Of a DNA stretch of 64,000 nt, positions 3,683 through 59,270 are shown one piece after another (position 1 is the first letter of the stretch; the number at the start of each line of letters is the position of its first letter). The notes beneath the pieces were generated by a model. It was given only the letters and a program-made list of their open reading frames with translations. It did not search any database and was not told the DNA's origin. Origin of the DNA: Chloroflexota bacterium (GTDB lineage: Bacteria > Chloroflexota > Anaerolineae > Aggregatilineales > Phototrophicaceae); NCBI GenBank assembly GCA_016223085.1, contig JACRPS010000006.1, positions 124,001-188,000 of the forward strand, written 5' to 3'. Both the position numbers and the translations under genes were made by a program.

Positions 3683-3754
3683 GGCCCCGTAGTTCAGTGG
3701 CAGAACAGGAGCCTTTTAAGCTCTGTGTCGTAGGTTCGAGTCCTACCGGGGTCA
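3683..3754 (+). tRNA. tRNA-Lys, anticodon TTT (probable ICE attachment gene)
   Basis: Full cloverleaf: acceptor GGCCCCG/CGGGGTC, D stem GTTC/GAAC, anticodon stem GGAGC/GCTCT with loop CTTTTAA (anticodon TTT, reading AAA/AAG Lys codons), T arm GTAGG-TTCGAGT-CCTAC, discriminator A. CCA is not encoded. The serine recombinase gene runs into it from the 3' side on the other strand, as expected if the tRNA 3' part is the attachment core of the element to the right. Confidence 0.95.
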
Positions 3755-5439
3755 CAAAAGCCGACCTGAAGTGAACGTCCAGTCCCATTGCGGCTGGATG
3801 TTTGTTTTCCAGCGCTGCGCGAGGATTTACTCTTCACTTGCTTGCCGCTATCACCCCCTGCTAACTGATGCAGGTAGACAAACGGCGATTTCAACTCCAG
3901 CCTCAACACCTGACCTCGAAGGTCAATGACAACCCTATCGACGACCTGCCGCAGGATGTCGCGCTGCCGCGCTGCCTCCTGCTGTCCGTATCGCTCCCCA
4001 ATCTGCGCGATGATTGCCAGCGCTGCATCAAGATTTGCGATAGTTTCTCTATTTTCCTGTTGAATCGCTTTTAATGCAAATGTGATGCGATCCTGCTCAT
4101 CCTGGTACTCACGCGCCAGCTTTTGGAATGTCTCGGCACGCATCCCGTGTTCGGTGAAGGCGCGCCACAGATTGAGTTCCCGTTCCTTTACCCGCTCTAA
4201 TGCCTGTTCAAGGGCTTGGATTTCTTTGGCGCGAGAGGATGAATGGCTGTGTATATCCGCCAGATAGGTCTGTCGAATTTGCGGGAGAATTGCCGGGCTC
4301 ACCTGGATATGGCGCAGGAACTGCCCGATTTGCTGGTCAACAGCGCTGCATAGGAAATTGAGGGAGCTGCTGGGTACGCAGTAGTAGGAAACCCCCTCCG
4401 GTGTGCGGGTGGCATTCGGTCGCGCACAGGTGAGCTTCACCAGTTCCCCGCCCGGCATCTGAAGGTAGATCAAGCCTTGCAGCAGATAGAAATGCTTCTT
4501 CTGCGGCACCGGTTTTCGATTGCGCCGGGCGAGGATGGCGAGACCCAACTCAAATTCCTCGGTCGATACCACAGGCTGCCAGTTGCCACGCAGCGTCTTG
4601 GGTGGGATATGCGCCCACTCATTCTCCGCGACCACCCAGCCAGCGTAAAACCAGTTGTGGAAAACCCGCGAGAGCGCCTGTTTGTTGGGGACTCGCTTCC
4701 CCCGCTGGTTCACGCGCACAAACGGACGACCATCGCGCAAGCGATAGCCACGCGCGAACAAAGCCTCGCAAATGTCCTCCAGCGTTGGCGCATCTTGTAG
4801 CAGCAAGTCCCAGGCATAGCGCCAGACCTGCGCCTGTTCCGGGTCAATCTCGACCCAACGCTTGTAGCGGGCATGGTGCAGCTGCTCTTCTCGCCCTAGT
4901 TCTCCAATCTTAACCTCTTTGTTGACGTAGCCATCAGGCGCGCGCCATGCCCATTCACCTCTGAGCAGCTTGGAGAGCATCCCGCCGGTGGTGCGCTTGC
5001 CGGTGATAGCCGACTCGCGCTTTGCCATGCCGAAGAGGATGTTGAAGTAGAGGCGGTCATCCGGGTCGGAAGGATCCAGATCGGGATGGGAAGCGAAACG
5101 CACTTTGATGCCCAGACCGGTCATCTCGTCAATGGCGCGCAACGCCTCGACATCATCCCGTCCGAAGCGATCCGGAGTGCTGGCGAAGACATGGGAGAAC
5201 TTGCCCTGACGCGAGTCGGATAGCATCTGCTGGTAGTGTTTGCGGTCGGCGGATGTGCCGGTGTAATTGTCGATGTATTCGCCGAGGTCTGGAAGCGAGA
5301 GATAGCTGACCAGCCGTTGGAAAATATCCCGGCGCTGGGCAGCCTGTGAGCGTTCCGGTGACTGCACTTCTTCGTCGCTGGTACGCAGATATTTGACGAA
5401 GCCGGAATCCGGCGTTAGACGTGGTCGTTTGCGCGCCAT
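3694..5439 (-). CDS. Large serine recombinase (site-specific integrase)
   Basis: 581 aa. The N-terminal resolvase domain starts VKYLRTSDEEVQSPERSQ, with catalytic Ser at about residue 21, and has the RFGR arginines near residue 92. A recombinase domain follows (GYRLRDGRPF...GWVVAENEW), then a zinc-ribbon-like Cys region (LTCARPN...YYCVPSSSLNFLC), a coiled-coil segment and a basic tail. The last roughly 19 codons (from DPGRTRTYD to FCH) and the stop are the antisense strand of the tRNA-Lys gene, so its 3' end changes with the integration state. It is the last gene of a minus-strand operon with 5471-5671 and 5668-5910. Serine integrases using tRNA sites are less common than tyrosine ones. Confidence 0.93.
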   Translation of the reverse strand: MARKRPRLTPDSGFVKYLRTSDEEVQSPERSQAAQRRDIFQRLVSYLSLPDLGEYIDNYTGTSADRKHYQQMLSDSRQGKFSHVFASTPDRFGRDDVEALRAIDEMTGLGIKVRFASHPDLDPSDPDDRLYFNILFGMAKRESAITGKRTTGGMLSKLLRGEWAWRAPDGYVNKEVKIGELGREEQLHHARYKRWVEIDPEQAQVWRYAWDLLLQDAPTLEDICEALFARGYRLRDGRPFVRVNQRGKRVPNKQALSRVFHNWFYAGWVVAENEWAHIPPKTLRGNWQPVVSTEEFELGLAILARRNRKPVPQKKHFYLLQGLIYLQMPGGELVKLTCARPNATRTPEGVSYYCVPSSSLNFLCSAVDQQIGQFLRHIQVSPAILPQIRQTYLADIHSHSSSRAKEIQALEQALERVKERELNLWRAFTEHGMRAETFQKLAREYQDEQDRITFALKAIQQENRETIANLDAALAIIAQIGERYGQQEAARQRDILRQVVDRVVIDLRGQVLRLELKSPFVYLHQLAGGDSGKQVKSKSSRSAGKQTSSRNGTGRSLQVGFCDPGRTRTYDTELKRLLFCH

Positions 5440-12508: not shown

Positions 12509-14425
12509 ATGTTCTACTGGTTGTTTACCGAAGGACGCAGCCTCGCCATTGTCACCGTTTTGCCGCTGATCTGTCTTGGGCTGGCATTCCCCATTGTCTA
12601 TGCAGTGACCGCCGGAGTAGGGGTGCGTCGAACCGATGAAACGTTGCCGATCAAACGCGGCAGGCTGCTCCGTGTGTTGGCGCATCTGGCATTGAGCGCA
12701 GCACTCTGTTCGCTCTTTGTGCTTGGATTGGGTGAAACAGCCGTCCAGCGCGGGCGGAATACCGTCAGCCAACCGCTGCTCCGCCTGCTGGTGGGAGCGC
12801 CGACCAGCATGGATGCGCAGCGGATACTGTGGTTCAGCATCGGCATGGCTGGATTGATTCTGGTCGCTAACCTCCTGTTGTCCGGGCAGCTTAAGCCGGG
12901 TTCGGCTTTCCGCGAGTGGATCGACAGCTTACGCAGCCCCAAGCGGCGGCGCGGCGAAGCGGGATCATCCCACTTCTGCACGCCCCGCGAATACAAGCGC
13001 TACCGGCGCCCCGACAAAGAGGGGGTGATCTTCCTCGGCGCATTCTGGGGCGAGCGCAGCGTCCGCCTTGATGCGGGACAGGGGCAGTTCTGCCTGAGCG
13101 GGGAGGACTCTGCGCGGGGCATTCTGACACTGGGTGGGCCGGGTTCGGGTAAAAGTCAGGCGGTCATTCTGCCGGTGATCGCTGATCGGATGCAGGCGGG
13201 GCATTCGCTCATCATTGCCGATCCTCAGGGGGAATTGACCGCCCACATCCTGCGTTTCGGCGCCGTCACCAGACATACCGTTGCCATCCATGATCCGACG
13301 CGCGGCGACATGCCGCGCTTCAACCTGGCGCAGGATATTGAGACGGTTTCCGATGCTAGGGCAATCGCCGAAGTGCTGGTGCCAGCCGCGCGCGGTGACA
13401 ACAAATTCTGGAGCGACTCGGCGGCGGCGTTGCTTTCTGCCTGCCTGCTGCGCTTCGACACGCTCGGCGATGTCTATGCCGCGCTCTCCGATTTGCAAGG
13501 ACTGGCAAACAAACTCAGCGCAAAACCCGATGATGCCTACCTGCTCGCCAACAGCTTCATCGCCAGCGTCAAGAGCGACGGCAAAGTTGCTTCCAACACG
13601 GTGGCGACACTGGCAACGGCGCTCACCGGCTGGGCGGCGCAGACCGTGCGCGAGACGACCTCTGGTTCGGATTTTGATGCCAGGATATTGGTGCAGCGCC
13701 CGACGGTGGCGGTGCTGACCTGTCCGGGACGGATGCGCCAGGTGTACGCGCCGTACCTCGGTGCGGTACTGCGAAAGCTGATGCTCGACCTCGATACGAT
13801 TGGCGAGACCAACGGCGGCCCACTGCCTGTACCCGTCGCGGTGGTGATGGACGAATTCCCGGCACTGGGCAAGCTCGACTCGCTGGTGGCGGATGTCAAC
13901 CTGGTGCGCAAGCGGCGCATTTCGATTGTCGTGGCGGCACAGACGAAGGGGCAGTTTCATCTGCTGTATGGCGAGGCGGGGACGGAGGCATTATTCACGG
14001 GGTTGGCGACACAAATCGTTTTTGGTGGCTGCGATGCCGACACCGCTGCTTACTACAGCCGAGCCAGCGGGCAGACAACCGAGAAGAGCAGCCGCAAGCG
14101 CGCCGACGGCACGAGCGATGAGTACCCCCGTCAGCGCCCGCTGCTGACCTCCGACGAGGTGCAGAGTCCGCCGCGTGGCAACAGCCTGATCTTTGCGCGT
14201 TACGTCGATGAGAACTACGCCGCGCAGGTGGTGCTTGCTGCCCGGCTGACCCGATTCTACGAACGCCTGGACTGGAAGCAGCGCTTGACAGTCGCAAAAG
14301 GCAAAGCGCCCGAACTGCTCAAACGGCGTGAATCAATACCAACGATGGCAGTGGCGAAACCGCCGACCATCATTCCAACCGTCAAACCACCGCGCGCATG
14401 GAGCATCAGCCGTGAACAAGACTGA
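12509..14425 (+). CDS. Type IV coupling protein (VirD4/TraG family ATPase)
   Basis: 638 aa. Two or three N-terminal membrane segments (LAIVTVLPLICLGLAFPIVY; HLALSAALCSLFVLGLG; FSIGMAGLILVANLLL) anchor it. Walker A is GGPGSGKSQ near residue 210; Walker B is PVAVVMDEFPALGKL; AAQTKGQF and the later region match the TraM-recognition/TraG C-domain. It links the relaxosome to the secretion channel and pumps DNA. It starts 8 bp after the relaxase-like gene and overlaps the HU gene by 14 bp. Confidence 0.93.
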   Translation: MFYWLFTEGRSLAIVTVLPLICLGLAFPIVYAVTAGVGVRRTDETLPIKRGRLLRVLAHLALSAALCSLFVLGLGETAVQRGRNTVSQPLLRLLVGAPTSMDAQRILWFSIGMAGLILVANLLLSGQLKPGSAFREWIDSLRSPKRRRGEAGSSHFCTPREYKRYRRPDKEGVIFLGAFWGERSVRLDAGQGQFCLSGEDSARGILTLGGPGSGKSQAVILPVIADRMQAGHSLIIADPQGELTAHILRFGAVTRHTVAIHDPTRGDMPRFNLAQDIETVSDARAIAEVLVPAARGDNKFWSDSAAALLSACLLRFDTLGDVYAALSDLQGLANKLSAKPDDAYLLANSFIASVKSDGKVASNTVATLATALTGWAAQTVRETTSGSDFDARILVQRPTVAVLTCPGRMRQVYAPYLGAVLRKLMLDLDTIGETNGGPLPVPVAVVMDEFPALGKLDSLVADVNLVRKRRISIVVAAQTKGQFHLLYGEAGTEALFTGLATQIVFGGCDADTAAYYSRASGQTTEKSSRKRADGTSDEYPRQRPLLTSDEVQSPPRGNSLIFARYVDENYAAQVVLAARLTRFYERLDWKQRLTVAKGKAPELLKRRESIPTMAVAKPPTIIPTVKPPRAWSISREQD

Positions 14426-32497: not shown

Positions 32498-32713
32498 ATG
32501 TCCGAACAGACAACTCAGAAATCACGTGTCTTCAAGACTGGCACGGTTCGCATTGTGGAGAATGCCAGCATGTCGGGGCTGTCAAACGAAGAGGTTCGTT
32601 CGTTGCTCAAGTCCAGCTACCCGGAAGTCGCCAACGCCACCATCCGCGAGAGCCAGCTTGAGGATGGCACGCCGCTGATCGAATTTCTCCCGCAGCCTGG
32701 GCGGAAAGGATAG
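32498..32713 (+). CDS. PRTRC system protein C (small ubiquitin-like beta-grasp protein)
   Basis: 71 aa from the ATG at 32498 with AAAGGA upstream. RVFKTGTVRIVENASMSGLS, then NEEVRSLLKSSYPEVANATI and EFLPQPGRKG, fits the PRTRC_C family (short strand, M-S-EEVR helix, YPE-A-A strand, terminal G-KG). In PRTRC cassettes this small protein accompanies a ThiF/E1-like adenylating enzyme and protein B, both found 7-8 kb downstream here, beyond the transposon. Confidence 0.78.
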   Translation: MSEQTTQKSRVFKTGTVRIVENASMSGLSNEEVRSLLKSSYPEVANATIRESQLEDGTPLIEFLPQPGRKG

Positions 32714-32718
32714 TCACG

Positions 32719-32748
32719 ATGTTCGGCGCAGGCTTGACTGTGACTTAA
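32719..32748 (+). pseudogene. 5' stub of the gene struck by the Tn7-like element
   Basis: ATG-TTC-GGC-GCA-GGC-TTG-AC, then transposon sequence giving a TAA at 32746. AAAGGA before the ATG overlaps the stop of the protein C gene, so this was the original start of the gene now read from 38603. Confidence 0.85.
32734..32738. repeat. Target-site duplication, left copy (TTGAC)
   Basis: TTGAC immediately before the TGTGACTT transposon tip; identical to 38618-38622. Confidence 0.95.
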
Positions 32749-32811
32749 AGCATAAAATGTCCGTTTGGACACGTTATGCTTTCAAATCGCAGCGGACAGG
32801 TTATGGTTTCA
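32739..32811. repeat. Left transposon end with three TnsB-site-like repeats
   Basis: The terminal site is inverted (32739-32762). Then GGACACGTTATGCTTTCAAA (32767-32786) and GGACAGGTTATGGTTTCA (32794-32811) point inward. The first two face each other and form an imperfect hairpin at 32748-32782. Confidence 0.85.
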
Positions 32812-32936
32812 TCCGCGTCTCAATCGTAAACCCCATGCCCTAACGCGCAATTTACCGTTTTGCATCCTGCCAAGTATGCTCCATGCAGGCAGCCTCACCG
32901 CTGCTTCATAACCGTTTGGAGTAAAGGATTGGCAAG

Positions 32937-35498
32937 ATGACCTTCAAGGATGAAGCCGCTTTCGAGATGTGGTGCCGAAGTGCAGGATATGACACACGAA
33001 CGACTGCACTCATTCGACGCATTCGCACATCACCCCCATCGAGAAATGTAGGAGGCGGGCGTGGCAATGTTCGCGCTCGTCTTCCAAGCCACAAAATGGG
33101 GATGACCATCCAAAGTGAGAGCCGTACCGCCGAGAAACCGGGCATTCGCATCTTCTACGAGTACGACCACCTGCGGGAAACAGAGGTTGAGGCACAGGTA
33201 CTGGAATTCTACGACCAGCCTGACGCCATCGCTTTGCGGTATGTGACTGCTGCCGGACGGACGGTAAGTACCTGGCATACACCGGATTTCTTCGTCATTC
33301 GAGAAAACACCGCCGGATGGGAAGAATGGAAAACCGAAGATGAGTTGGTCAAGTTGGCGCACAAACAGCCTGTTCGCTACCACAAAGATGAAACTGGACA
33401 GTGGCGCTGTCTACCCGGAGAGGCGTATGCTGCCGGGTTCGGTCTGTACTACCGGTTACGCTCCAATGCGGAAGTCAACTGGACGCTGTTCAGCAATCTG
33501 GAGTTTCTGCATGAGTATCTCACCAGAGGATGTGAACTCGTGTCCGTCAACCGTCTCGCGCTGCTTGACCGGGTTCGCAACCAGGAGGGGATAACACTGG
33601 CAGATCTGCTGCATGAACAGTCTGCGGATGAGGTGTATCTGCTCATTGCCCAACGTCAGCTTTACGTAGACCTTCAGAGCGAGCGTCTGGCGGAACCAGC
33701 GCGAGTTCGGGTCCACAGCAGCCGAGCTGCTGCCGAAGCCTACCAGCACGTCAACGCCACAAAGCCCCTGTATATGGCTGCCACAGCGTCTGCCTCAGAT
33801 GCCTACTCTGCCCACTGGGTCACTGCCAGCGAACAGGACTACGCTGTTGCCAATGCCCGCTTACGGGTTTTGCAAGCACTGGATGCAGGCATGACGCTGG
33901 AACAGGCGTGGCAGGCGGATGATGTCCTCTCCGTGTTGGGCGAGGTGAAACATATTCGTACCGTGCGTCGCTGGCGTCGCGCCTTTCGAGAGTCCCAGTT
34001 GTCTGCAGGCAGTGGTTATGTCGGACTGCTACCCTATGTCCATCAGCGAGGCAACCGGGAGCGCAAACTCTCTGACGCTGCTTGGAAGCTGCTGCAAGAC
34101 TTCATTGAGAATCACTACGAAACCGCACGTCAGCCATATACCGCGTCCGTCTGGGCAGCCTACTGTCAGGCGTGCGAACGTGAAGGCATTACACCTGCCA
34201 GTTTAACGACGTTTGGGAAGGCCGTCAAGCAGCGTCCACAGGAAGTACAGACGCGCAAGCGACAGGGCAAGCGGGCGGCCTACCAAATCCAGAAGCGGTA
34301 CTGGTATCTGGAGGCGACTACCCCCAAACACGGGGAACGTATCTGGCATGTCGTGCATCTCGACCACACGCTGCTGGATATCCAACTCCGTCACACCCAA
34401 ACCGGGCAGGTGCTGGGGCGTCCCTGGGCGACGTTCGCGGTAGATGCCTACAGTCGTCGTCTGCTGGCGGTCATGTTGACGCTGGATGACCAACCCAGCT
34501 ACCGCACCTGTATGCTGGTTTTGCGCGAGATGGTGTCCCGGTTCGGACGTTTACCGCAAACGCTGGTGGTGGACAATGGCAAAGAATTCCACAGCACTTA
34601 CTTTCAGGCGCTGCTGGCACATTACGGAGTGGAGGTTGCCTACCGTCCACCAGGGCAGCCCCGCTTTGGCGATGTGGTCGAGCGTCTGTTTCGCACCGCC
34701 AACACCCAGTTCATCTACAACCTGACAGGCAACACCCAGCTCACCCGTCAGGTTCGTCTCGTGACCACCTCGCATGACCCACGCCAGCTCGCACTGTGGA
34801 CGCTGGAGACCCTGTATGGCGTGCTGCGGGAATGGGCGTATGAAGTCTACGACCAAGCAGTGCATTTCTCGCTTGGTCAGTCACCGCGTCAGCTCTACCA
34901 GGACAGTCTTACCCAGCATGGTGAGAGAGCGTTCCAGCAGTTGGATTACAGCACATTCATCCTGCAAGCGCTGCCCGCGCCCACCCACGGGCACTCCCGC
35001 AAAGTCCAACCCAGTGGAGTCAAGATTGAGCATATCTACTACTGGCATGACCTGATGTACCGACCGGATATTCTGGGAACGCAGGTGCCTGTTCGTTACG
35101 ACCCATTCAATGTCGGGATTGCTTACGCTTACCTCGACAAAACATGGGTGCGCTGCACGTCAGAACATTACGCGACCTTCCACAACCGTACCGAGCAGGA
35201 ACTCCAGATTGCGCGTGAAGAAATGGTTGCCAGCTACCGTGAGCGCGGGCGAGCAATTGGCACGCTCAATGCGAGATTGTTGGCAGACTTTCTGGAGCGA
35301 ACCACTTCTTCCGAACGCCTGCTGAGACAACAGCAGTGCGACGATGCCATGCAGTCCATCCGGTCAAGTGTAACCCAGTTAGCGCCTGTGACAGTGTCCA
35401 ATGCTGAGACAGAGATATGTTCCTCTGCGGATGGAGTAGACGGTGAGACTGCACTCAAACCGTCCTTTACCCATCTTCTGCTCCCGGACGACTTTTAG
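32937..35498 (+). CDS. tnsAB: TnsA-TnsB fusion transposase
   Basis: 853 aa with AAAGGA upstream. Residues about 60-140 are a TnsA-type PD-(D/E)XK nuclease: ETEVEAQVLEFYDQP, STWHTPDFFV (Asp117) and WEEWKTEDEL (Glu130, Lys132), which cuts the 5' strands. Residues about 200-440 are helical DNA-binding domains. The RNase H-fold DDE core has HLDHTLLDIQ (Asp476), LVVDNGKEF (Asp546) and GDVVERLF (Glu582); a Mu-type beta-barrel follows. The fusion should allow cut-and-paste transposition. tnsC starts 3 bp downstream. Confidence 0.93.
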   Translation: MTFKDEAAFEMWCRSAGYDTRTTALIRRIRTSPPSRNVGGGRGNVRARLPSHKMGMTIQSESRTAEKPGIRIFYEYDHLRETEVEAQVLEFYDQPDAIALRYVTAAGRTVSTWHTPDFFVIRENTAGWEEWKTEDELVKLAHKQPVRYHKDETGQWRCLPGEAYAAGFGLYYRLRSNAEVNWTLFSNLEFLHEYLTRGCELVSVNRLALLDRVRNQEGITLADLLHEQSADEVYLLIAQRQLYVDLQSERLAEPARVRVHSSRAAAEAYQHVNATKPLYMAATASASDAYSAHWVTASEQDYAVANARLRVLQALDAGMTLEQAWQADDVLSVLGEVKHIRTVRRWRRAFRESQLSAGSGYVGLLPYVHQRGNRERKLSDAAWKLLQDFIENHYETARQPYTASVWAAYCQACEREGITPASLTTFGKAVKQRPQEVQTRKRQGKRAAYQIQKRYWYLEATTPKHGERIWHVVHLDHTLLDIQLRHTQTGQVLGRPWATFAVDAYSRRLLAVMLTLDDQPSYRTCMLVLREMVSRFGRLPQTLVVDNGKEFHSTYFQALLAHYGVEVAYRPPGQPRFGDVVERLFRTANTQFIYNLTGNTQLTRQVRLVTTSHDPRQLALWTLETLYGVLREWAYEVYDQAVHFSLGQSPRQLYQDSLTQHGERAFQQLDYSTFILQALPAPTHGHSRKVQPSGVKIEHIYYWHDLMYRPDILGTQVPVRYDPFNVGIAYAYLDKTWVRCTSEHYATFHNRTEQELQIAREEMVASYRERGRAIGTLNARLLADFLERTTSSERLLRQQQCDDAMQSIRSSVTQLAPVTVSNAETEICSSADGVDGETALKPSFTHLLLPDDF

Positions 35499-35500
35499 CC

Positions 35501-36652
35501 ATGAAAGGGACACAGCTCATGGATACGCCTCAGTTCCCGCTGGAGCTACTGCAAGCATCCCCGGAAGCACGCAAAGCCTACTTCAACAGCAAAGTCGTTG
35601 CTCATCCCAGCATTGTTCATGCCCATACACTGCTCATGTCCGCGCTGCGTAATCCCACAGATGGGCAGATTGTCATGGTCATTGGTGCACCGGGCGTGGG
35701 CAAGACAACGGTTCGCAAAGCCATGGTACGCGACCTGACGGCGCAGTTTCTCGCTCAGGCTGAGCGTCATCCGGGTCATCTTCCGGTCGCAGGGATTGAA
35801 CTGGAAGCATTTGGAGGCGGGAATTTCAAGTGGAAACAGACTCGTCAGGCACTGCTGCACGCACTTCAGGAACCCATGGTGGACAAAAAAGTAGGGTATT
35901 CCACGACCATGCACGGTGAACATGCCGTTTTACAGCGCAGTACCCGCCTGTCGTCCGACGATTTAGGCGAGCTGCTGCTGGCTGTGCTGGCGCAGCGCGT
36001 GCCTCAGGCGTTGTGGTTCGACGAAGGGCAGCATCTCATTAAAGTAGCAGGTGCCAGAGGACTGCTCGACCAACTGGATGTCCTCAAATCTCTGGCAAAC
36101 CGCTCACGTATCCCAACGGTGTTGTTTGGCACCTACGAGATGAATGTGCTGCTCGGATTGAGTCCGCAGCTCGACCGACGCATTTTCCGCATTCACATTC
36201 CCCGCTACAAAGCCACCGACCCGGTAGACATTGCTGCCTTCCAACAGGTTTTGTTTGGACTGCAAAAACATCTCCCTTTCCCGGAAGAACCGCATCTGGT
36301 CGAGGATTGGGAGTATTTCTTCACCGGGTCACTGGGCTGTGTGGGTATCCTGAAGGACTGGCTGTACCAGGCAGCAGGTGCAGCCTTCGACCGGGATGAA
36401 CGAACGCTCACGCGAAGCATGTGTGAGACGTGGGCGAGAGAAACGGACGTGTTGGTGGACATGCTCCAGCGCATAACCAGCGGAGAGACGCAGTTCATAC
36501 AGGAACACAGCGCAACCGAGCTGCGAACGCTGCTCGGACTGTCGGTGACCGACAAAGCTGCATCGTCTTCGACCAGACCGAAAACCTCCACCCAAAAATC
36601 CCAACCGGGGACTCGTAACCCGGTACGCGACAAGGTGGTCGGTTATGGTTGA
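35501..36652 (+). CDS. tnsC: TnsC-type AAA+ transposition regulator
   Basis: 383 aa. Walker A MVIGAPGVGKTTVRK near residue 65, Walker B ALWFDEGQHLI, sensor-1-like PTVLFGTYEMN and an RR pair in SPQLDRRIFRIHI. TnsC polymers link the target selector (TniQ) to the transposase. It is translationally close to both neighbours: 3 bp after tnsAB and overlapping tniQ by 8 bp. Confidence 0.92.
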   Translation: MKGTQLMDTPQFPLELLQASPEARKAYFNSKVVAHPSIVHAHTLLMSALRNPTDGQIVMVIGAPGVGKTTVRKAMVRDLTAQFLAQAERHPGHLPVAGIELEAFGGGNFKWKQTRQALLHALQEPMVDKKVGYSTTMHGEHAVLQRSTRLSSDDLGELLLAVLAQRVPQALWFDEGQHLIKVAGARGLLDQLDVLKSLANRSRIPTVLFGTYEMNVLLGLSPQLDRRIFRIHIPRYKATDPVDIAAFQQVLFGLQKHLPFPEEPHLVEDWEYFFTGSLGCVGILKDWLYQAAGAAFDRDERTLTRSMCETWARETDVLVDMLQRITSGETQFIQEHSATELRTLLGLSVTDKAASSSTRPKTSTQKSQPGTRNPVRDKVVGYG

Positions 36653-38399
36653 GATGGAAACGACTGTCTGGGAGATGCTCACTCCAGCATACCCATCCAC
36701 CAGCGTCCTGTACCCGCTTGCACCGGTTGGCGTTGGAACGCCATTTGTCGAGAGCCTGACGGGCTATCTCAAGCGCCTGGCACAGGCGCACCATCTCAAG
36801 GTTGTGGATCTGGTGACGTTTTGCAGCACGCAAACCGACACGCACGTTTTACCCTCAACACTGCAAAAGCTGTCACGCATAGATGGCATGACCGACAGCG
36901 GACAAGCCTGGTCTGCACTGCTGGGAAAACTCACCTGCCAGGAGATGGTGGATTGCCTGACCATGAACTACTGGCGGGCGCGGCTCAACCCGTACCGGAT
37001 GCTGCGCCAACACCATGCCTGGTGTCCGCAGTGTTTTGCGGATGCAGCTCGTCGTGAAACGCCTCTTTACGAACCGCTGACGTGGCGCTTGCAGTGCGTT
37101 GGAGTCTGTACCGCTCACCAATGCTCACTCGTCGAAAGATGTCCGACCTGCGGCAGCCAGTTCACCACGCTCTCGAATTGGGCAGTGGTGAGCTATTGCC
37201 CGAAGTGTCAGAGTTGGCTTGGCGATTCAACACTCCAAGACCCACTACACCCCTGTAGTGAGGAGAACTACAAGCGAGCAGAGGCTGTTGGACGGCTCTT
37301 GTCGCTCGCTCCCTGGACGAACCCTGCACAGTGCAACCGTATGGCATATGTCGTTCCACACCTCGGACAGCAGCACCGAACGACCTATACCTATCTGGCA
37401 CAGGTTATGCACACCACAGCCAGCTCAGTCAGTACGCTGCTGGCAGACCGTCGCCACCCCAGTCTGGACATGGTTGCACGTTTAGCAGCCTATTCAGGGG
37501 AACCGTTTTGGCGGGCGCTAATCCAACCGGCTGCTCTGGCAGTGGGTTGCCCAACACAACCCAAAACCAGCGATCCGCTGGCTTACCCCGACCAGTTGCT
37601 CAAGTCGCCACAGCGGTTACCGTCGCTCCGTACCATTGCCCGACAGTGTGGCTTTGGCACGGTCATGGCCTTCCGCAAAGCGTTTCCTGCACACCATGAT
37701 GCACTTTGGCAGCGTATTTACGCGGAACAGCGCCAGATTCTGGAAGCAGCGCTGCACCAGGACCCACCCGTGGTGCTGTCCAAATGGGCAGAGCAGCATG
37801 GGTACCGAGCAGGCGATCTTTACTACCATTTTTACGACTTGTGTCTGCAAGTAACGCAGCGCTTTCTTACCGACAAGCACGAACGCTGTCGTCGCTACCT
37901 GAAAACTGTGCTGCAAAACCAGATGTTTCCCACCTTCAGTGAAATACGTACCAGCTTAAGCGTGGGTGACCATTATCTGCAACAGCATTTCGCGCACGAG
38001 CTTCAGGTTATTGAAACCAGGCGACAGGACCAACTTGAACATTTGCAAACGTCTGTCAAAGCGTACCTCGACCGGATTTTAGAGGAGGATGAAGGTGCTG
38101 TCTCCCTGGAGCAGATTGCCCAGACAGTTGGGAAAAGCACCCGCTATCTCAAAGACAATTTCCCCTCGCAGTCACAAACGCTCTTGAGTCGGCGGCGCGA
38201 CTACATTGCCAGACAAGTACAGGCGACCTGTGACCGCATTCGCCAGACAGTTTTCGACTTGCACCAGCAGGGCATTTATCCCAGTGTTGACCGTATCCAT
38301 GCGGTCATTGACAGTTGGATGGTACACGGGAAAGCCTACCGTCACGCCTACACTGAGGCGATGACGCGGTGCGGTTATCTTTCACCCGCTACACAGTAA
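36645..38399 (+). CDS. tniQ: TniQ/TnsD-family target-selection protein, long form
   Basis: 584 aa. The N-terminal TniQ domain has VESLTGYLKRLAQAHHLKVV and zinc fingers WCPQC, C-TAHQC, CPTCG and CPKC. The C-terminal 300 residues hold repeated helix-turn-helix-like segments (for example LPSLRTIARQCGFGTVMAFR and VSLEQIAQTVGKSTRYLKDN), as in TnsD proteins that read a DNA attachment site directly; CRISPR-associated TniQ proteins are shorter (about 400 aa). This suggests DNA-sequence-guided targeting. Confidence 0.9.
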   Translation: MVEMETTVWEMLTPAYPSTSVLYPLAPVGVGTPFVESLTGYLKRLAQAHHLKVVDLVTFCSTQTDTHVLPSTLQKLSRIDGMTDSGQAWSALLGKLTCQEMVDCLTMNYWRARLNPYRMLRQHHAWCPQCFADAARRETPLYEPLTWRLQCVGVCTAHQCSLVERCPTCGSQFTTLSNWAVVSYCPKCQSWLGDSTLQDPLHPCSEENYKRAEAVGRLLSLAPWTNPAQCNRMAYVVPHLGQQHRTTYTYLAQVMHTTASSVSTLLADRRHPSLDMVARLAAYSGEPFWRALIQPAALAVGCPTQPKTSDPLAYPDQLLKSPQRLPSLRTIARQCGFGTVMAFRKAFPAHHDALWQRIYAEQRQILEAALHQDPPVVLSKWAEQHGYRAGDLYYHFYDLCLQVTQRFLTDKHERCRRYLKTVLQNQMFPTFSEIRTSLSVGDHYLQQHFAHELQVIETRRQDQLEHLQTSVKAYLDRILEEDEGAVSLEQIAQTVGKSTRYLKDNFPSQSQTLLSRRRDYIARQVQATCDRIRQTVFDLHQQGIYPSVDRIHAVIDSWMVHGKAYRHAYTEAMTRCGYLSPATQ

Positions 38400-38415
38400 C
38401 CTATATGTGTTTTGC

Positions 38416-38447
38416 CAGAGCAGCGGTATGCCCACTGCTCTGTTTTT
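38416..38447 (+). terminator. Terminator of the tns operon
   Basis: CAGAGCAG / CTGCTCTG perfect 8-bp stem, then TTTTTG. Confidence 0.8.
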
Positions 38448-38474
38448 GTTCGCGTCGTGAATTTCGCAACGTTA

Positions 38475-38617
38475 GGACGTTTTATGCTTGAAATTTCACG
38501 ACTTTGGAAAGGATATGCTTCAAGATCCATGACTCAACGACCACAAAACCGCACCAATATCGCCCGATTAGGACAGGATATGCTTCAAAATGAGGACATC
38601 TTATGCACCAAGTCACA
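38475..38617. repeat. Right transposon end with four TnsB-site-like repeats
   Basis: GGACGTTTTATGCTTGAAA (38475-38493), GGAAAGGATATGCTTCAAG (38506-38524), GGACAGGATATGCTTCAAA (38571-38589) and the terminal site (38594-38617), all in the same orientation. Confidence 0.85.
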
Positions 38618-38872
38618 TTGACATTAACGAGCCTGCGGGAGTGCCTGGCACAGGTTGAACCGGTCAAGCTCCTGGGGATGGAACTGCTCAAGCAGGGCAG
38701 CACCCAGCCCCAGGGCAGCTGGTTCCCAACCGACATTCCTCGCAGTCAGATGGTCGAGGCGGTCACGGAACTGGTGGGCTACACCCGCCGCTGCGCTTAC
38801 GCCGCCTCACAGATCAGCCAGCTTGCTTCTGTGCCGCTGACATCCCTGCAACTGATGGAGTATGGCTTATGA
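38603..38872 (+). CDS. Hypothetical PRTRC-operon protein, 5' end rebuilt by the transposon
   Basis: 89 aa. Codons 1-5 (MHQVT) come from the transposon tip, with GAGGA six bases upstream also inside the tip; from TTG at 38618 on it is the original gene (LTLTSLRECLAQVEPVKLLG, then MVEAVTELVGYTRRCAYAA). Before insertion the protein began MFGAG and was also 89 aa long, so the transposon only swapped five residues and supplied a new ribosome-binding site. Family unknown; ATGA overlap with the next gene. Confidence 0.75.
   Translation: MHQVTLTLTSLRECLAQVEPVKLLGMELLKQGSTQPQGSWFPTDIPRSQMVEAVTELVGYTRRCAYAASQISQLASVPLTSLQLMEYGL
38618..38622. repeat. Target-site duplication, right copy (TTGAC)
   Basis: TTGAC immediately after the ...AAGTCACA transposon tip. 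Confidence 0.95.
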
Positions 38873-39732
38873 GCGATTTGCTTCAGGCTCAACACCTGCT
38901 TGTCCTGGGCATGAATGCCGATCCACTGCTGTGCCTGGCGAATGCTGTGGCCTGGTTGGATCCATTCTGGGACGAGTTTGCCGATGAAGACGATTATGGG
39001 GAGGACGGCGATACCCTCAGCCTGGCGCTGCGCGTGGTGCGCGACTCCTTTCCGGACATCTACGTGCAGGTGATTGAACGGCTGCGTTCCGGCAGTTCGT
39101 GGGCTGAGGTTGAACGCCTGGTGTGCGGCGAAATCGAGAAGCAGGGTATCCCGCTCGACAACCTCGAATTCATGCCCTACGGCATTCCGATGCCCGCTTA
39201 TGGCGTCACCCTCGAAGACCCGGAGTTCTATCAAAGCCATGCGGATGTTGTCCCCGTTGTGCAGGCGTTTGGGATTGATCCAACCACGCATCCCTACCAG
39301 GTTGAAGTTCCAGAATGCGCTCACATCGCCGGGCAGATCATCGCCGCCAGCCTGGAAGATCACCCGGATGAAGGCTATCGCAACCTGTCATGGTTAATGC
39401 AGTGGTTGTTCTCGTGTTCCGGCAACTCCACCATCGACTTCGATTATGAAACGATGTGCGAATTCCAACCGCTGTCCTGGGAGCGTGAGAACATCGATTT
39501 CGCCGCTGCCATCATCCACGAGGCAGATGAAATCATCGGTCATGCCCTCAATGGGCTGAAATTTCTGCAAACGCATCCCATCGTTCTAAACGCGCTGCGC
39601 GACAACGTGCAGCATATTTATAAAGCGATCAGCAAATTACCGAAGGAGAAACGCCATGACAACCCTCGCGTTCGATGTGTCTGGCCGAGCGTTGGATCGG
39701 GTATTGACCGAACAGCCCTCGCTTGTGCTTAG
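38869..39732 (+). CDS. Hypothetical protein, possible PRTRC protein F-like
   Basis: 287 aa, translationally coupled to the gene before it (ATGA). The C-terminal part, LMQWLFSCSGNSTIDFDYET, then SWERENIDFAAAIIHEADEI, recalls the LFG-SGN-L-DY and W---N--F---A-- patterns I associate with PRTRC protein F. The gene also sits where F is expected, just before B. The last 77 bp overlap the protein B gene in another frame, so the C-terminal tail may be unimportant. Confidence 0.5.
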   Translation: MSDLLQAQHLLVLGMNADPLLCLANAVAWLDPFWDEFADEDDYGEDGDTLSLALRVVRDSFPDIYVQVIERLRSGSSWAEVERLVCGEIEKQGIPLDNLEFMPYGIPMPAYGVTLEDPEFYQSHADVVPVVQAFGIDPTTHPYQVEVPECAHIAGQIIAASLEDHPDEGYRNLSWLMQWLFSCSGNSTIDFDYETMCEFQPLSWERENIDFAAAIIHEADEIIGHALNGLKFLQTHPIVLNALRDNVQHIYKAISKLPKEKRHDNPRVRCVWPSVGSGIDRTALACA

Positions 39733-40366
39733 ATTTTACAGCTATGGGGTGATGCTCGAAAAATGGGACGGTGACCGGGTGGCTGAATACCCGGTGGATC
39801 CGGCGCAGATCGCGCTGGCGCTCTCAGCAAAAGTCGGGTTCGACACCGGATTGATGATCGGGAATACATTGCTGGTGCGGTACGAAGGTGTAAAGAAAAC
39901 CGTCGTCGAGTATCGTCCGCCGGGTAAAACCGGATTGTATTTTGAAGGCTCGGAAACCCCGCTGCGCGTGCCGCTGCCCGGAATGCTGATGATCCGCGTG
40001 ACGGCAGACGACAAAACACCGCAGTATCAGGTCTACGCGGTGAAGCAGCGCCCCGACAAGCTGGACGTTCCCTTGTTTCACCTGCCGCTGCCGAATGTGT
40101 TTACCAGCGGCAGCATCTGCTGGGGCAGCGTACCAGTGGTCTCCGAGGCGGCCCTGAAAGGCAGTTCGCTGGCCGACGATTGGGCGATTTTCCTGGGCAG
40201 TCGCTTCGGCGATCACGGCTGTAATGGCAAGTCGAAATCACACCCGCAGGACATCCGGCAGAAGCTCATCCATCTCGAAGGGCGTAAAGCGCGCGTGTAT
40301 CCGAAGGCCGATTTGATTCCGGTGAAGAAAACCCTTGCCCAAGTGCTGGGTGATGATCGTCAGTAG
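39656..40366 (+). CDS. PRTRC system protein B
   Basis: 236 aa with GAAGGAGA upstream. VEYRPPGKTGLYFEG, VPLPGMLMIRVTADDKTPQY and LPNVFTSGSICWGSVPVVSE match the PRTRC_B pattern (R-P-P---G, P--lw-----, LPN(V/I)---G-ICWG). The family has been related to E2-like proteins, with the ICWG Cys of interest, but no enzymatic activity is proven as far as I know. It should act with the ThiF-like protein encoded 470 bp downstream. Confidence 0.75.
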   Translation: MTTLAFDVSGRALDRVLTEQPSLVLRFYSYGVMLEKWDGDRVAEYPVDPAQIALALSAKVGFDTGLMIGNTLLVRYEGVKKTVVEYRPPGKTGLYFEGSETPLRVPLPGMLMIRVTADDKTPQYQVYAVKQRPDKLDVPLFHLPLPNVFTSGSICWGSVPVVSEAALKGSSLADDWAIFLGSRFGDHGCNGKSKSHPQDIRQKLIHLEGRKARVYPKADLIPVKKTLAQVLGDDRQ

Positions 40367-40379
40367 AGGAGAGCAAACG

Positions 40380-40838
40380 ATGGGCTACGATTGTTACGCG
40401 ATCTTGCAGGCACAGATACCGAATGCAGCCATCGGACAAGCTGTTCTCGATGTGTTGGAAGCCGATGAGAACTGGGGCGTATTCCCGGTATCCGAGGTTG
40501 GGGACGACCATCTTTACTTTCAATGGGAAGGGCGCAACCGGGATGAAGAGAGCGTATATGCCCTACTCGAGCCAGTCGCGCTGCGCCATGCCATCACGTT
40601 TGAGGTGGAATACAGCAGCGATTACGACAGCGGGCTGCGGTTCTTCGTCGGGGTGGATGCTCAACGACTCAATACACTGCATCAGCTCGACCAGGTAATG
40701 GACGCGCTTCAAAATCTGTTGTCGCCGCCTCAGCAGCGGATCGCGGTATTGAAAGCATGGCCGCGGCGCGTTGACCTTGAAACGCTCCTGAACGCACTTC
40801 ACCAATTGCTCGCCGAGGCAGGAGAAACATCATCATGA
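40380..40838 (+). CDS. Hypothetical protein in the PRTRC cassette
   Basis: 152 aa from the ATG at 40380 (AGAGGAGAG upstream; a frame back to 40335 is not preferred). MGYDCYAILQAQIPNAAIGQ opens an alpha/beta protein with WGVFPVSEVGDDHLYFQWEG and a helical C-terminus. No family recognised. It overlaps the ThiF gene by 4 bp (ATGA). Confidence 0.6.
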   Translation: MGYDCYAILQAQIPNAAIGQAVLDVLEADENWGVFPVSEVGDDHLYFQWEGRNRDEESVYALLEPVALRHAITFEVEYSSDYDSGLRFFVGVDAQRLNTLHQLDQVMDALQNLLSPPQQRIAVLKAWPRRVDLETLLNALHQLLAEAGETSS

Positions 40839-41602
40839 ATGTCTTTGACCCTTTCATGCATCTCCAGACCGTGACTGTCGTGGGTCTGGGCGGTACAGGG
40901 TCGCAGGTGGCGCGCAGTCTGGCGCGGATGATCTATGACATGCGCCGCGCACGTCTGCATACGCCATCAGTCGTTCTCATTGACCCAGATGTTGTCGAAG
41001 AGAAAAATGTCGGCAGACAGATGTTTGCTGCAGGCGACATCGGACAGAACAAGAGTCGGGTGCTGGCGCGCCGCTTTAACCAGGCGCTCGGACTTGAGAT
41101 CGCCGCTGTGGATCAACCACTCGATGCCCGGCGGCATATTGAACGGCATGGCAACCTCGTGATTGGCTGCGTAGATAATCATCTCGCCCGCCGCGAATTA
41201 GCGAAAGTCGAAGGCATCTGGCTGGATGCAGGCAATCACTTTGACAGCGGCCAAGTGTGTATCGGCAATTCCACAGATCGGGATACGCTAATGCGGCACA
41301 TCAACGGCGACCAGGGCAAGTATCGCTATCTGCCCAGCCCGGCGCTGCTGTTTCCCCAACTACTCGAACCTGAGCCGCAGCCCACACCGCAACCAACTCT
41401 ATCCTGTGCTGATCTAGTCGCACGCGGCGAGCAGCACCTGCTCATCAATGATCTCGTCGCCTGCGTCGTGTCGGGTTACGTTTACAAACTGCTGCACCGC
41501 CAGCCCGTGACGGCCTTCGTCAGCTATATCAGCGTGGATGGGTTGTCCGTCCGCAGCCTGCCCATCTGCCGCGACGAACTCCTCCCTTATCTTCACGCCT
41601 AA
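40835..41602 (+). CDS. PRTRC ThiF-family (E1-like) adenylating protein
   Basis: 255 aa. Rossmann nucleotide motif VTVVGLGGTGSQVARSLARM; SVVLIDPDVVEEKNVGRQMF and DIGQNKSRVLARRF carry the Asp, Arg and Lys of E1/ThiF ATP binding; NLVIGCVDNHLARRELA is the usual second half. ThiF/E1 enzymes adenylate the C-terminus of a small ubiquitin-like protein; protein C (32498) is the natural substrate candidate. Cys172 to Cys215 hold possible thioester Cys (LSCADLV, LVACVVSG), unassigned. Confidence 0.85.
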   Translation: MNVFDPFMHLQTVTVVGLGGTGSQVARSLARMIYDMRRARLHTPSVVLIDPDVVEEKNVGRQMFAAGDIGQNKSRVLARRFNQALGLEIAAVDQPLDARRHIERHGNLVIGCVDNHLARRELAKVEGIWLDAGNHFDSGQVCIGNSTDRDTLMRHINGDQGKYRYLPSPALLFPQLLEPEPQPTPQPTLSCADLVARGEQHLLINDLVACVVSGYVYKLLHRQPVTAFVSYISVDGLSVRSLPICRDELLPYLHA

Positions 41603-56650: not shown

Positions 56651-58804
56651 TCACGTCATGCGAAAACGGTGAAACTCGCCTTCTGAAGGTCGGTTGTAGA
56701 GATACCAGATGCCCTCTTCCTGCACGTCAAGCAGGAAGTGAAAACGGGGCAGATTGGCGATGATCTCACGGTGCTGAGCGTTGAAGTGTTGAAACGCGGC
56801 ATCCTCGTGGAAAACGTTCAAGCCCTGCCGCTGGTTGAAAATCACACGGATCGGACAGTTCTCGAACACCAGCCGCGCTTTCTGTTCGAGGAACACACTC
56901 ATCTGCTGATCGATCACCACCAATTTTTTTCTGCGGGTGCGGAACGTTTTGGCTGCTTCAATCAGAAAGTCGAGCAGCGAAGGATGGCGCATCAGGCGGT
57001 AGACCTCATCGACAGCGATGATGCGCGGCTGTTCATCGGACAGGCTGTCGCGGCGAATCGCGCTCAGGACCTGGGTGTAGGCAATCGCCAGCATGATCGG
57101 ATCCTGTTCCATCTCGTGGAAGGAAAAGACCTGCGGCTGTGCCTTGAAGCGCGACGAGAGGTCGAGATTGGTCGTCCCGTTGACAAAGCCCGCCCACGGA
57201 CCCTTGCCCGTACACAAGCCCGCGATTTCGTCAGACAGGTCGCGGGCGATCTGCTGGATGTGCGGCTTGTCGCCCAGCCCGCTCAGGACATCACAGACCG
57301 TCTCGGTTAAGGGAGCGATGTCGGGCGTGACCGCCATCAGATCGGCGAAGCCGCTGTAGAGCGTTTCCAGCGCCTCGCCGAGCAGCGCGCGTTCCTGGTT
57401 CGCCTTCTGAGTGCCCGAAAGCTGCCGCCCCAACAGGGTTTCGTAGAGCCGGATGGTGTGCGCCTTCTGCTCGACCAGCGTCGGGAACATCACATCCTGC
57501 GGATTGAGGCAGGTGTGCTGGGCACTCATCACGTACCAGGGCAGTCCGAAGGCTTCGGCGACGTGCCGCCCGTGTCCCATCGGTTCGAGCAGGGTAAAGG
57601 GCACCCCTTCCTCGGCGTATTGGCGGGTCAGCAGGCAGTTGAGGGCAAACGTCTTCCCGTACCCGCTCACGCCGACCCAAACCTCATGGGTTGCCCGTCG
57701 ATCGCGCCACGAGTTATGGAAAACCGGGTAGCGCCCGCCTGCCGCCTCCCCGCGCAGCGTCCCTTCCAGGCTTGCCAGTTTGCGATAGCCCAGCGGCGCA
57801 AACAGCAGCGCCAGTTCGCGCGAAACCAGCGGCCACGTCGTGTGGGGAATCAGGATGTCCTTTGATGGGGTTGTGGTGAAGCACTTCGCCGCTTCCGACT
57901 GCGCCTCGCCAATCTCCGCCCGCAGCAGAAACCAGGGCTTGACGAGATGAACCACCTCATCCACGCGCTTCCTGAGCGTCCTGCGATCCGGGGCGGCCAC
58001 CGCGATCACGATCTGCGCGTCGTGCAGGGCATCGCCCAGGTTGAGTTCTTCCAGCGCCTGACGGCAGTCGATCACCTTCTTGACCGAGCGGCTGTCCTCG
58101 CCGCGCGTCGTCGCCAGATGCACCGAATAGGCCTGCACAACGCTTTCGATCTCGTTGATGGCATCGTTGCGATCCCAGGTTTTGGGGATGTCCACGCACA
58201 GCGCGAGCGGAAAATCCGTTCGTAAAAGCTGCGCCAGTGGACGACCAAAATCCCAGATCGTCGGCTGGAACTGGTAGCTGGAAAGGAAGGCAAAGTAGAA
58301 CCGTCCACCCGGACGACCGGTCGGCGCAAGATGCCAACCGCGATAGCCGCCCCCCGGTTCGCACAGTTCATAGTCGCCTTGAAACAACGCCGGCCAAGGC
58401 GACTCCACCGCCGTCGTATCAAATGACCCGGACACCGAGCGGGCGAGTGTCCGACCACTTTCGTTGACATCCAGCCACACCGCCAGTCCGCAAATGGCGC
58501 GCTGATAATCGGCCTCCTGCTGGAGCAGTTCGTAGTGGCGGCGGTATTCCATCAGCAGGGCTGCCCGCTGCGGTTCAAGTGCCGTCTGCGCCATCGTCTT
58601 CACCGACTCGATGCGCGGCGAGAGATCGGCGGGCAGCTGCCAGGTGACGAAACGGGCAGGTCCCTGTAACCCGCGCAGCCACAGGCTGAAGCGATTTTGC
58701 AGCGCCTGTAACCCTTCCGGTGTGCCATGCAGCACGATGTCGAAGGGTTCGATCAGGACGGTGCGCGGGACGCGCTGTTCACCGCGCCGCAGCCGTGCCA
58801 CCAT
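56651..58804 (-). CDS. VirB4/TraC-family conjugation ATPase
   Basis: About 717 aa from the ATG at 58804 (GGGAAGGGGGG upstream); the frame above it up to 58921 is not preferred. Walker A VWVGVSGYGKTFALN near residue 377, Walker B RIIAVDEVYRLMRHP near 595, then KKLVVIDQQMSVFLE and a final FLLDVQEEGIWYLYN. VirB4 powers pilus assembly and substrate transfer. It overlaps the end of the VirB3/PrgI-like gene by 26 bp. Confidence 0.92.
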   Translation of the reverse strand: MVARLRRGEQRVPRTVLIEPFDIVLHGTPEGLQALQNRFSLWLRGLQGPARFVTWQLPADLSPRIESVKTMAQTALEPQRAALLMEYRRHYELLQQEADYQRAICGLAVWLDVNESGRTLARSVSGSFDTTAVESPWPALFQGDYELCEPGGGYRGWHLAPTGRPGGRFYFAFLSSYQFQPTIWDFGRPLAQLLRTDFPLALCVDIPKTWDRNDAINEIESVVQAYSVHLATTRGEDSRSVKKVIDCRQALEELNLGDALHDAQIVIAVAAPDRRTLRKRVDEVVHLVKPWFLLRAEIGEAQSEAAKCFTTTPSKDILIPHTTWPLVSRELALLFAPLGYRKLASLEGTLRGEAAGGRYPVFHNSWRDRRATHEVWVGVSGYGKTFALNCLLTRQYAEEGVPFTLLEPMGHGRHVAEAFGLPWYVMSAQHTCLNPQDVMFPTLVEQKAHTIRLYETLLGRQLSGTQKANQERALLGEALETLYSGFADLMAVTPDIAPLTETVCDVLSGLGDKPHIQQIARDLSDEIAGLCTGKGPWAGFVNGTTNLDLSSRFKAQPQVFSFHEMEQDPIMLAIAYTQVLSAIRRDSLSDEQPRIIAVDEVYRLMRHPSLLDFLIEAAKTFRTRRKKLVVIDQQMSVFLEQKARLVFENCPIRVIFNQRQGLNVFHEDAAFQHFNAQHREIIANLPRFHFLLDVQEEGIWYLYNRPSEGEFHRFRMT

Positions 58805-59270
58805 CGTGCCCCCCTTCCCATTCCACCAGCCGCAGCCCGCCCGCGCCTTCCAACTCGTCGAGGCTGGCAAACAAGGTCCATTCACCCGGATCGCCATCGA
58901 CGGACTGCATCGAAGCGGCAAACAGGCGTTCGCCGCGCAGGTAGGCAGCTGCCGGGTTCAGGCTCAACACCTGCGCCAGCTGCACGGCGAACCCGTCACG
59001 CCGTTTGGCAGCGCTCAGGACAATCCCGCCGCGCCAGCCCAGCAGCACCCGCTGCCACAGTGGCAGACCTCCACGCGCCCCTGACAGGATCAGCAGCCCG
59101 GCAAAAACCGCGATCAACGCCGGCAGCGACAGTCCAGCCAGCGGGGTCAGGCGCAGCAGCATGAACATCAGCACCGCGCCCACGCCGCAGAAGATCAGGC
59201 GTTTCATCGAGATGCTGCCGAAGCCTTTTTCCTCGCGCAGGCGGACATTGGACTTAAAGTGCGCTGCCAT
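58779..59270 (-). CDS. VirB3/PrgI-like membrane protein
   Basis: 163 aa. Short basic N-terminus, two membrane segments (KRLIFCGVGAVLMFMLLRLT; SLPALIAVFAGLLILSG), then a soluble C-domain. Size, topology and the position directly before VirB4 match PrgI or VirB3 inner-membrane partners of VirB4. The assignment is by topology and context. Confidence 0.65.
   Translation of the reverse strand: MAAHFKSNVRLREEKGFGSISMKRLIFCGVGAVLMFMLLRLTPLAGLSLPALIAVFAGLLILSGARGGLPLWQRVLLGWRGGIVLSAAKRRDGFAVQLAQVLSLNPAAAYLRGERLFAASMQSVDGDPGEWTLFASLDELEGAGGLRLVEWEGGHDGGTAAAR

Follow-up and report, generated by a model that had tools for sequence, protein, structure and literature searches.

In Tn7, TnsD binds the end of the glmS gene, and insertion takes place about 20 bp past its stop codon (PMC2918618). 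The known TnsD sites that we noted in PMC11406308 are chromosomal (glmS, parE and tRNA genes), and mobile DNA is reached through TnsE, through CRISPR guides or, for the TniQ-family element Tn5053, by targeting the resolution sites of plasmids. The same paper also describes a branch in which TnsA and TnsB are fused (TnsAB); it holds the type I-B2 and I-D CRISPR-associated transposons (CASTs), whose TnsD targets tRNA genes, together with unstudied modes that do not involve CRISPR. CyCAST is reported to home to a position 30–33 nt past a tRNA (PMC10293859). Here we describe an element in a 64,000-nucleotide stretch of a Chloroflexota bacterium genome (contig JACRPS010000006.1, positions 124,001 to 188,000 of the forward strand), hereafter called the window. 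We assign it to the fused-TnsAB subfamily of Tn7-like transposons. It does not qualify as a CAST, and tRNA genes are not its target. Very probably, it uses a TnsD pathway that homes to the PRTRC-C gene of conjugative elements.

Anatomy of the transposon and its proteins

The element occupies positions 32739–38617 on the plus strand (5,879 bp) and is flanked by perfect copies of TTGAC at 32734–32738 and 38618–38622. Tn7 also makes a target-site duplication (TSD) of 5 bp. The end closest to PRTRC-C, on the tnsAB side (32739–32811), which we take from the gene order to be the counterpart of the Tn7 right end, has TnsB-like repeats at 32745 on the minus strand and at 32767 and 32794 on the plus strand. 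The end on the tniQ side (38475–38617) has repeats at 38475, 38506, 38571 and 38594. The two termini show the TGT...ACA form of Tn7-like transposons, and their terminal bases match at 20 of 24 positions. An 18-mer scan found seven TnsB-like sites in the element, all at its ends (three and four, respectively). The same scan gave 19 hits across the 58,121 window bases outside the element and averaged one hit over 20 mononucleotide shuffles of it. Three tns genes span 32937–38399 without an internal stop, leaving 198 and 218 bp outside them, and all further open reading frames (ORFs) of at least 100 residues listed within the element overlap these genes. No CRISPR gene or array and no cargo were found in the element, where the three genes leave no room for them, and an Rfam scan gave no family at the gathering score. 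The original prediction, made from the letters of the window alone, had described a compact, cargo-free and CRISPR-free Tn7-like transposon with fused TnsAB. Ends, TSD and gene content agree with this description, the duplication, the end match and the seven repeats were all recovered, and the element is confirmed as real and complete.

The first gene (32937–35498, plus strand) encodes a TnsAB fusion of 853 residues, a TnsA endonuclease joined to a DDE transposase, in which Pfam recognizes a TnsA-like N-terminal domain, rve and Mu-transpos_C. Its best sequence match in the PDB is 9bw1 (661 bits, E 2e-197), compared with 61 bits for an artificial PseTnsAB fusion and 17 bits for Tn7 TnsB; as a single polypeptide of that sequence group, it belongs to the fused-TnsAB subfamily. 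Transposons of the Tn5053/Tn402 group are not known to carry a TnsA endonuclease. Here the TnsA domain is present with D117, E130 and K132, and the TnsB part contains D476, D546 and E582, all at the positions predicted. The second gene (35501–36652, plus strand) encodes the 383-residue AAA+ regulator TnsC (Pfam AAA_22/TniB), with a Walker A motif at residue 62, a Walker B-like motif at 171, and PDB matches 9g0f and 8fcu at E about 1e-67. The third (36645–38399, plus strand) encodes TniQ, 584 residues long. TnsC and TniQ have no inner stop and are intact, as predicted, and the complement of TnsA, TnsB, TnsC and TniQ homologues, whose catalytic motifs are intact, is that of a Tn7-like transposon. 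Among the matching structures, 8fcu is titled as a type I-B CAST complex and 8v32, matched by TniQ, as a TnsD-TnsC-DNA complex; presumably 9bw1, 9g0f, 8fcu and 8v32 are all entries for I-B2/PmcCAST.

The evidence supports assigning the ‘long TniQ’ of the original prediction to the TnsD-type selectors, a point that had gone unnoticed. The protein consists of a TniQ domain (Pfam TniQ) with CxxC motifs, a helix-turn-helix region at about residues 227–300 that resembles XRE-type domains in Foldseek and structure comparison, and helix-turn-helix-like modules at 311–575. By sequence, residues 8–195 and 453–572 match the TnsD chain 8v32_J (E 4e-38). An AlphaFold model built from a 9-row alignment has a mean predicted local distance difference test score of 68. 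Its first half is of low confidence, and only residues 311–575 were used, for which the block means are 67–92. From the list of helices, this region may be read as about five tandem helix-turn-helix-like modules of short helices plus a long one. Foldseek ranked 8v32 first (E 6.4e-10, template-modelling scores 0.34–0.40), and VIA-align gave Z 9.9 with a root-mean-square deviation of 17.3 over 342 residues; given these low scores and the high deviation, we take the resemblance as likeness at the level of domains. The protein has both the TniQ domain and the C-terminal DNA-binding extension resembling TnsD that mark the TnsD type.

Insertion at a fixed distance from PRTRC-C

The putative target gene (32498–32713, plus strand) matches the PRTRC-C family (NCBIfam TIGR03738) over nearly its full length at E 3.7e-5, below the curated cut-off. 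The element begins 25 bases past its stop codon (32711–32713). Relatives with TnsAB at 77–81% identity (loci L009, L010 and L011) all lie directly after PRTRC-C as well. Searching 200 related genomes, we found PRTRC-C in 40 of them, at 78 places. The site table covers 73 of these places; outside it are G008:C655, G133:C27, G043:C1 near 2134440, G129:C199 and G026:C69. Ten of the tabulated sites are filled and 63 unfilled. Fifty run uninterrupted into the next gene, and the other 13 unfilled rows have tandem C genes, other spacers or missing data. A 75-base query from the tnsAB-side end matched 11 of the 200 relatives, the same 11 as among the 154 genomes of the order. In ten of the 11 (nine distinct), the matches are full-type ends at the ten filled loci. 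The tniQ-side end, searched alone in the 200 relatives, was found in nine genomes, all within these ten loci. Looking for the same ends elsewhere had been proposed as a check on the prediction, and across the 154 genomes of the order full-type ends occur at PRTRC-C alone.

Insertion is site-specific, a feature missed in the original prediction. At each of the ten loci with full-type ends, the element uses the one attachment (att) site, and the tnsAB-side end faces PRTRC-C, as expected for a TnsD-type selector. The distance from the stop codon to the PRTRC-C-proximal element is 25 bp at eight loci (one of them the duplicate in G077), 24 bp in G044 and 28 bp in G071. The genes on either side stay readable, and purifying selection could favor this spot, so one may ask whether insertion is nearly random and survives only where it is harmless. 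We consider this quite improbable: all ten loci are at one gene, eight of them at exactly 25 bp, and survivorship alone would not yield so tight a ruler or a single orientation. The TnsD-like selector also speaks against it. A strict DNA motif at the 3′ end of PRTRC-C, picked after the sites had been seen, is present at 8 of 9 distinct filled sites versus 22 of 50 uninterrupted ones (Fisher p 0.026); over all 73 rows, the counts are 9 of 10 filled versus 24 of 63 (p 0.004).

Within the genomes of the order, full-type ends are confined to the PRTRC cassette, which would also fit tns genes that have become a domesticated part of the conjugative element, serving its own integration or maintenance. 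This is exceedingly improbable. Most tabulated PRTRC-C sites (50 of 73) are uninterrupted, the transposon has its own ends and TSD, the window region encodes a separate serine recombinase, and copies without tns genes are found at the same site.

Independent insertions and empty sites

In seven of the eight elements with two ends, the TSDs on the two sides match: TTGAC, TTCAC, TTCAG, CTCGG, CTCGG, CCCTC and CCTCT, six sequences in all. Two natural empty sites can be compared with filled ones. In G008 the site reads GCAGGC-TTCAC-ATTGACGAGCC, and the element of G013 is bracketed by two copies of TTCAC. In G077:C118 it reads GCAGGC-TTGAC-GTTGACGAGCC, with TTGAC single at the insertion point; a further TTGAC, within GTTGACG, aligns with ATTAACG in the window. 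An empty site lacking a single copy of the duplicated bases had been named as evidence that would count against the prediction; each of these sites has its single copy.

The same site and orientation at 10 of 10 loci could reflect common descent from one ancient insertion inherited with the conjugative element, and the sister rows G067 and G073, which share the TSD CTCGG, may indeed be one event. As an account of the whole set, common descent is highly improbable, and we reject it on three grounds. First, the TSDs vary among loci yet match on both sides of 7 of 8 elements. Second, between G063 and G065 the elements share 93.1% identity (1706/1833), compared with only 61.6% (149/242) for the flank just outside. 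Third, filled and empty sites interleave on a quick tree of the flanking genes (PRTRC-C, the gene for a 287-residue protein, and PRTRC-B), where at least six changes are needed for the seven filled rows, five of them forced by starred branches. This tree holds 52 of 70 loci. The 18 left out beforehand were the filled G044, G065 and G077:C141, and L028, L069, L087, L089–L095, L134, L135, L138, L149 and L150; these were omitted because downstream genes were absent, spacers were unusual or, for some loci that have PRTRC-B, the sequences had diverged. At the level of sequence, repeated independent insertion at the same site is apparent, and these insertions of relatives back only indirectly the view in the original prediction that the window element appears fully functional.

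The interrupted gene and the short elements

The insertion site falls within the opening codons of the cassette gene that follows PRTRC-C. In the window this gene, which encodes 89 residues and has no Pfam match at E 0.01, originally started at 32719, before the element; it now runs from 38603 to 38872 (plus strand), its first five codons replaced by the element, and its N-terminus is changed from MFGAG to MHQVT. A Shine-Dalgarno-like GAGGA and an ATG (38603–38605) are found at the terminal TnsB-like repeat (38590–38605, plus strand), and this ATG shares the reading frame of the gene downstream. Each of the seven elements immediately next to the cassette gene has a GAGGA-like sequence (GGGGA in the inner copy of G143) and an ATG on the tniQ side. 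This ATG lies 15 nt from the tip, within the terminal TnsB-like repeat, and opens an in-frame reading frame of 85–89 residues into the cassette gene. The first ATG is 5 nt past the PRTRC-C stop at 23 of 50 uninterrupted and 8 of 10 filled sites. Since the insertion distance is fixed and the gene often starts at this position, the frame would often be kept on restart. We infer that the end-borne ATG is used as the start codon; it seems that the transposon can travel on a mobile element and leave that element intact.

Five of the ten loci have no match to tns proteins. Elements without tns genes measure 302 bp in G013, 304 bp in G067 and 345 bp in G073. In G143 (L101), two short elements (349 and 304 bp) are arranged in tandem at one PRTRC-C site; their TSDs differ, and the outer of the two is closer to PRTRC-C. 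The element of G071 (L100) is 1,513 bp long and contains a 340-residue ORF of the beta-lactamase family (serine hydrolase) at L100:1109–2131, which indicates that the family can carry cargo. In the three elements without tns genes that were scanned, six or seven TnsB-like repeats are kept. The short two-ended elements were presumably moved in trans by TnsABC-TniQ. Neither these derivatives at the shared site nor the in-frame ATG of the tniQ-side end had been noticed in the original prediction.

Lone TnsB-like sites and the surrounding region

The otherwise unfilled cassettes at L091, L092, L093 and L094 contain a lone TnsB-like site about 20–40 bases past the PRTRC-C stop. In genus g31 (four tabulated loci), an extra 20-bp block in a hairpin after PRTRC-C matches the TnsB site and is absent from two relatives. 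Its score is 21.3, compared with 12.1 for the 99.9% level of shuffled sequences and 18.7–28.1 for true sites. Allowing up to two mismatches, the 19-mer of this block occurs in those genomes only beside PRTRC-C, with five occurrences across four genomes. One possibility is that the block is a scar; another is that it acts as a decoy and confers target immunity. The match is weaker in G031 (score 13.1) and at L135. In the unfilled G105, a score of 17.2 falls inside the coding frame of the next gene and is probably due to chance.

The window region resembles an integrative and conjugative element (ICE). It encodes a serine recombinase (3697–5439) adjoining tRNA-Lys, a type IV secretion system coupling protein (12509–14425), a topoisomerase, a type I restriction-modification system and PRTRC-like genes, with a weak TraG-like match at 56654–58921; the predicted nesting of the transposon in an ICE is borne out to this extent. 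The only tRNA found by a scan of the window is the predicted tRNA-Lys at 3683–3755, and homing to a tRNA of the I-B2 or I-D type is not seen. This tRNA overlaps the 3′ end of the recombinase ORF, and the overlap is likely to be an end of the ICE. Downstream of the transposon are a gene for a protein resembling PRTRC system protein B (39656–40366, plus strand; NCBIfam TIGR03737, E 3e-15, over the last two thirds of the profile and below the curated cut-off) and one for a PRTRC system ThiF-family protein (40835–41602, plus strand; TIGR03736, E 1e-41, covering almost the entire profile but scoring slightly under the curated cut-off). The named relatives of the window locus belong to Anaerolineae/Chloroflexota.

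More distant relatives were sought in several collections. Among 400 genomes across the phylum, seven have a TniQ match, all but its own at 29–36% identity. In plasmids, all 25 tblastn records for TniQ fell short of both 60% identity and 80% query coverage; TnsAB gave 4,390 records, all below 60% identity, of which 39 cover 80%, the best rows being mostly cyanobacterial. Five of the plasmid-match regions were inspected, and the one from Caballeronia has no annotated genes. A scan of viral contigs with TnsAB found no relative. Related TnsAB proteins are encoded at L012–L016 (Anaerolineales and Bacillaceae), where a search found no tRNA. In the Bacillaceae loci L013–L016, tnsAB has a TniQ-family match on each side, the second one being short in L015, and in L014–L016 tnsAB is split into more than one piece. 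In a TnsAB/TnsC tree, the four PRTRC-site elements share one side of a branch whose support is just 51. Because of this low support, the very long Caballeronia row and the lack of CAST reference rows, the tree places the PRTRC group only roughly.

Discussion

We propose that the TnsD-type TniQ would bind the 3′ end of PRTRC-C, which encodes FLPQPGRKG, through its tandem helix-turn-helix array; by analogy, these C-terminal codons are the obvious counterpart of the glmS end bound by TnsD. DNA-bound TniQ would recruit TnsC, and TnsAB would excise the element and integrate it some 25 bp beyond the stop codon, the tnsAB-side end always facing PRTRC-C, and thereby duplicate 5 bp. The terminal TnsB site of the tniQ-side end would then restart the cassette gene in frame through its GAGGA and ATG, and elements with both ends but no tns genes would be mobilized by the same proteins. 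The anatomy, the fixed site and orientation, the repeated insertions and the in-frame ATG can be read from the DNA itself; binding by TniQ, excision and transposition are steps that we infer.

Several observations weigh against this model. G071 lacks a matching TSD, has the 28-bp offset and does not contain the PRTRC-C motif. In G044 the TnsAB gene is frameshifted and the tniQ-side tip is cut by the contig end; with its offset of 24 bp and a gene start at +6, restart would be out of frame. The tniQ-side tip is also missing in G065. The copy in G077:C141 (L008) shows 100% identity with the window across 14,940 bp; it is therefore not independent, and the distinct loci number nine. We rejected it as independent evidence; either an artefact of binning or very recent copying may account for it. 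On the flank tree, the filled sites show no more clustering than shuffled labels do (127 of 500 shuffles were as low), two rows are less than half filled, and long branches come together at G143. Enrichment of the motif is confounded by relatedness, and many sites with the motif are empty. Finally, the named loci are draft or metagenome-assembled records, and the remaining genomes are often fragmented.

If the model is correct, TnsD-type homing to a protein gene of conjugative elements would be a new target class and a new combination of safety and spread, and a transposon end doubling as a start codon would show how an operon can be entered without being broken. The three-gene minimal system, the derivatives without tns genes, the filled and empty sites and the tight ruler make modular target recognition by TniQ directly testable. 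The lone TnsB-like sites raise the question of natural immunity to Tn7-like elements. A broader scenario, which we offer tentatively and regard as unlikely on balance, is that a Tn7 lineage has merged the safe site with the transfer vehicle, through a single TnsD site on conjugative elements and a terminal TnsB site doubling as translation start, with some cassettes answering by a decoy TnsB site. A literature search that did not cover the cyanobacterial fused-TnsAB work turned up no publication that connects PRTRC to a Tn7-like element, so that absence from print is not established; the co-mentions of PRTRC and Tn7 examined in rhizobial papers concern a laboratory strain and a plasmid name.

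How does the element compare with known systems? One sequence in our data is closer to CyCAST in placement. The eleventh genome matched by the end query, G042, matches weakly, over 34 of 75 query bases near tRNA-Leu. On contig C1087 (L118/L131), near 1393–1440, inverted TnsB-like sites (34 bp at 85% identity) lie close downstream of tRNA-Leu(taa), and the genome has no TnsAB match at E 1e-20. The placement at a tRNA is as for CyCAST and the target differs from PRTRC-C, hinting at a tRNA-homing sister element. Like Tn5053, which presumably does so via its TniQ, the window element has a TniQ-family selector aimed at mobile DNA; it differs in having a TnsA domain, which Tn5053 is not known to carry, and in being directed at the 3′ terminus of a protein-coding gene. 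With the type I-B2 CAST (PmcCAST, Tn7744) and the I-D CASTs it shares the core of fused TnsAB, TnsC and a TnsD-type TniQ. It differs from them in having no CRISPR-Cas, in having one TniQ where the CASTs have two, and in an att site that follows a protein gene of a mobile element rather than a tRNA gene; its TniQ is also longer than the TnsD of 8v32 (584 versus 462 residues). The mode of insertion resembles that of Tn7 at glmS, with a fixed orientation, a fixed site some 20–25 bp downstream of a conserved gene's stop codon, and a 5-bp TSD. In contrast to Tn7, TnsA and TnsB are fused and there is no room for a tnsE gene, the target lies on a conjugative element instead of in an essential chromosomal gene, and the transposon enters the 5′ part of the following gene, for which its end carries a start codon.

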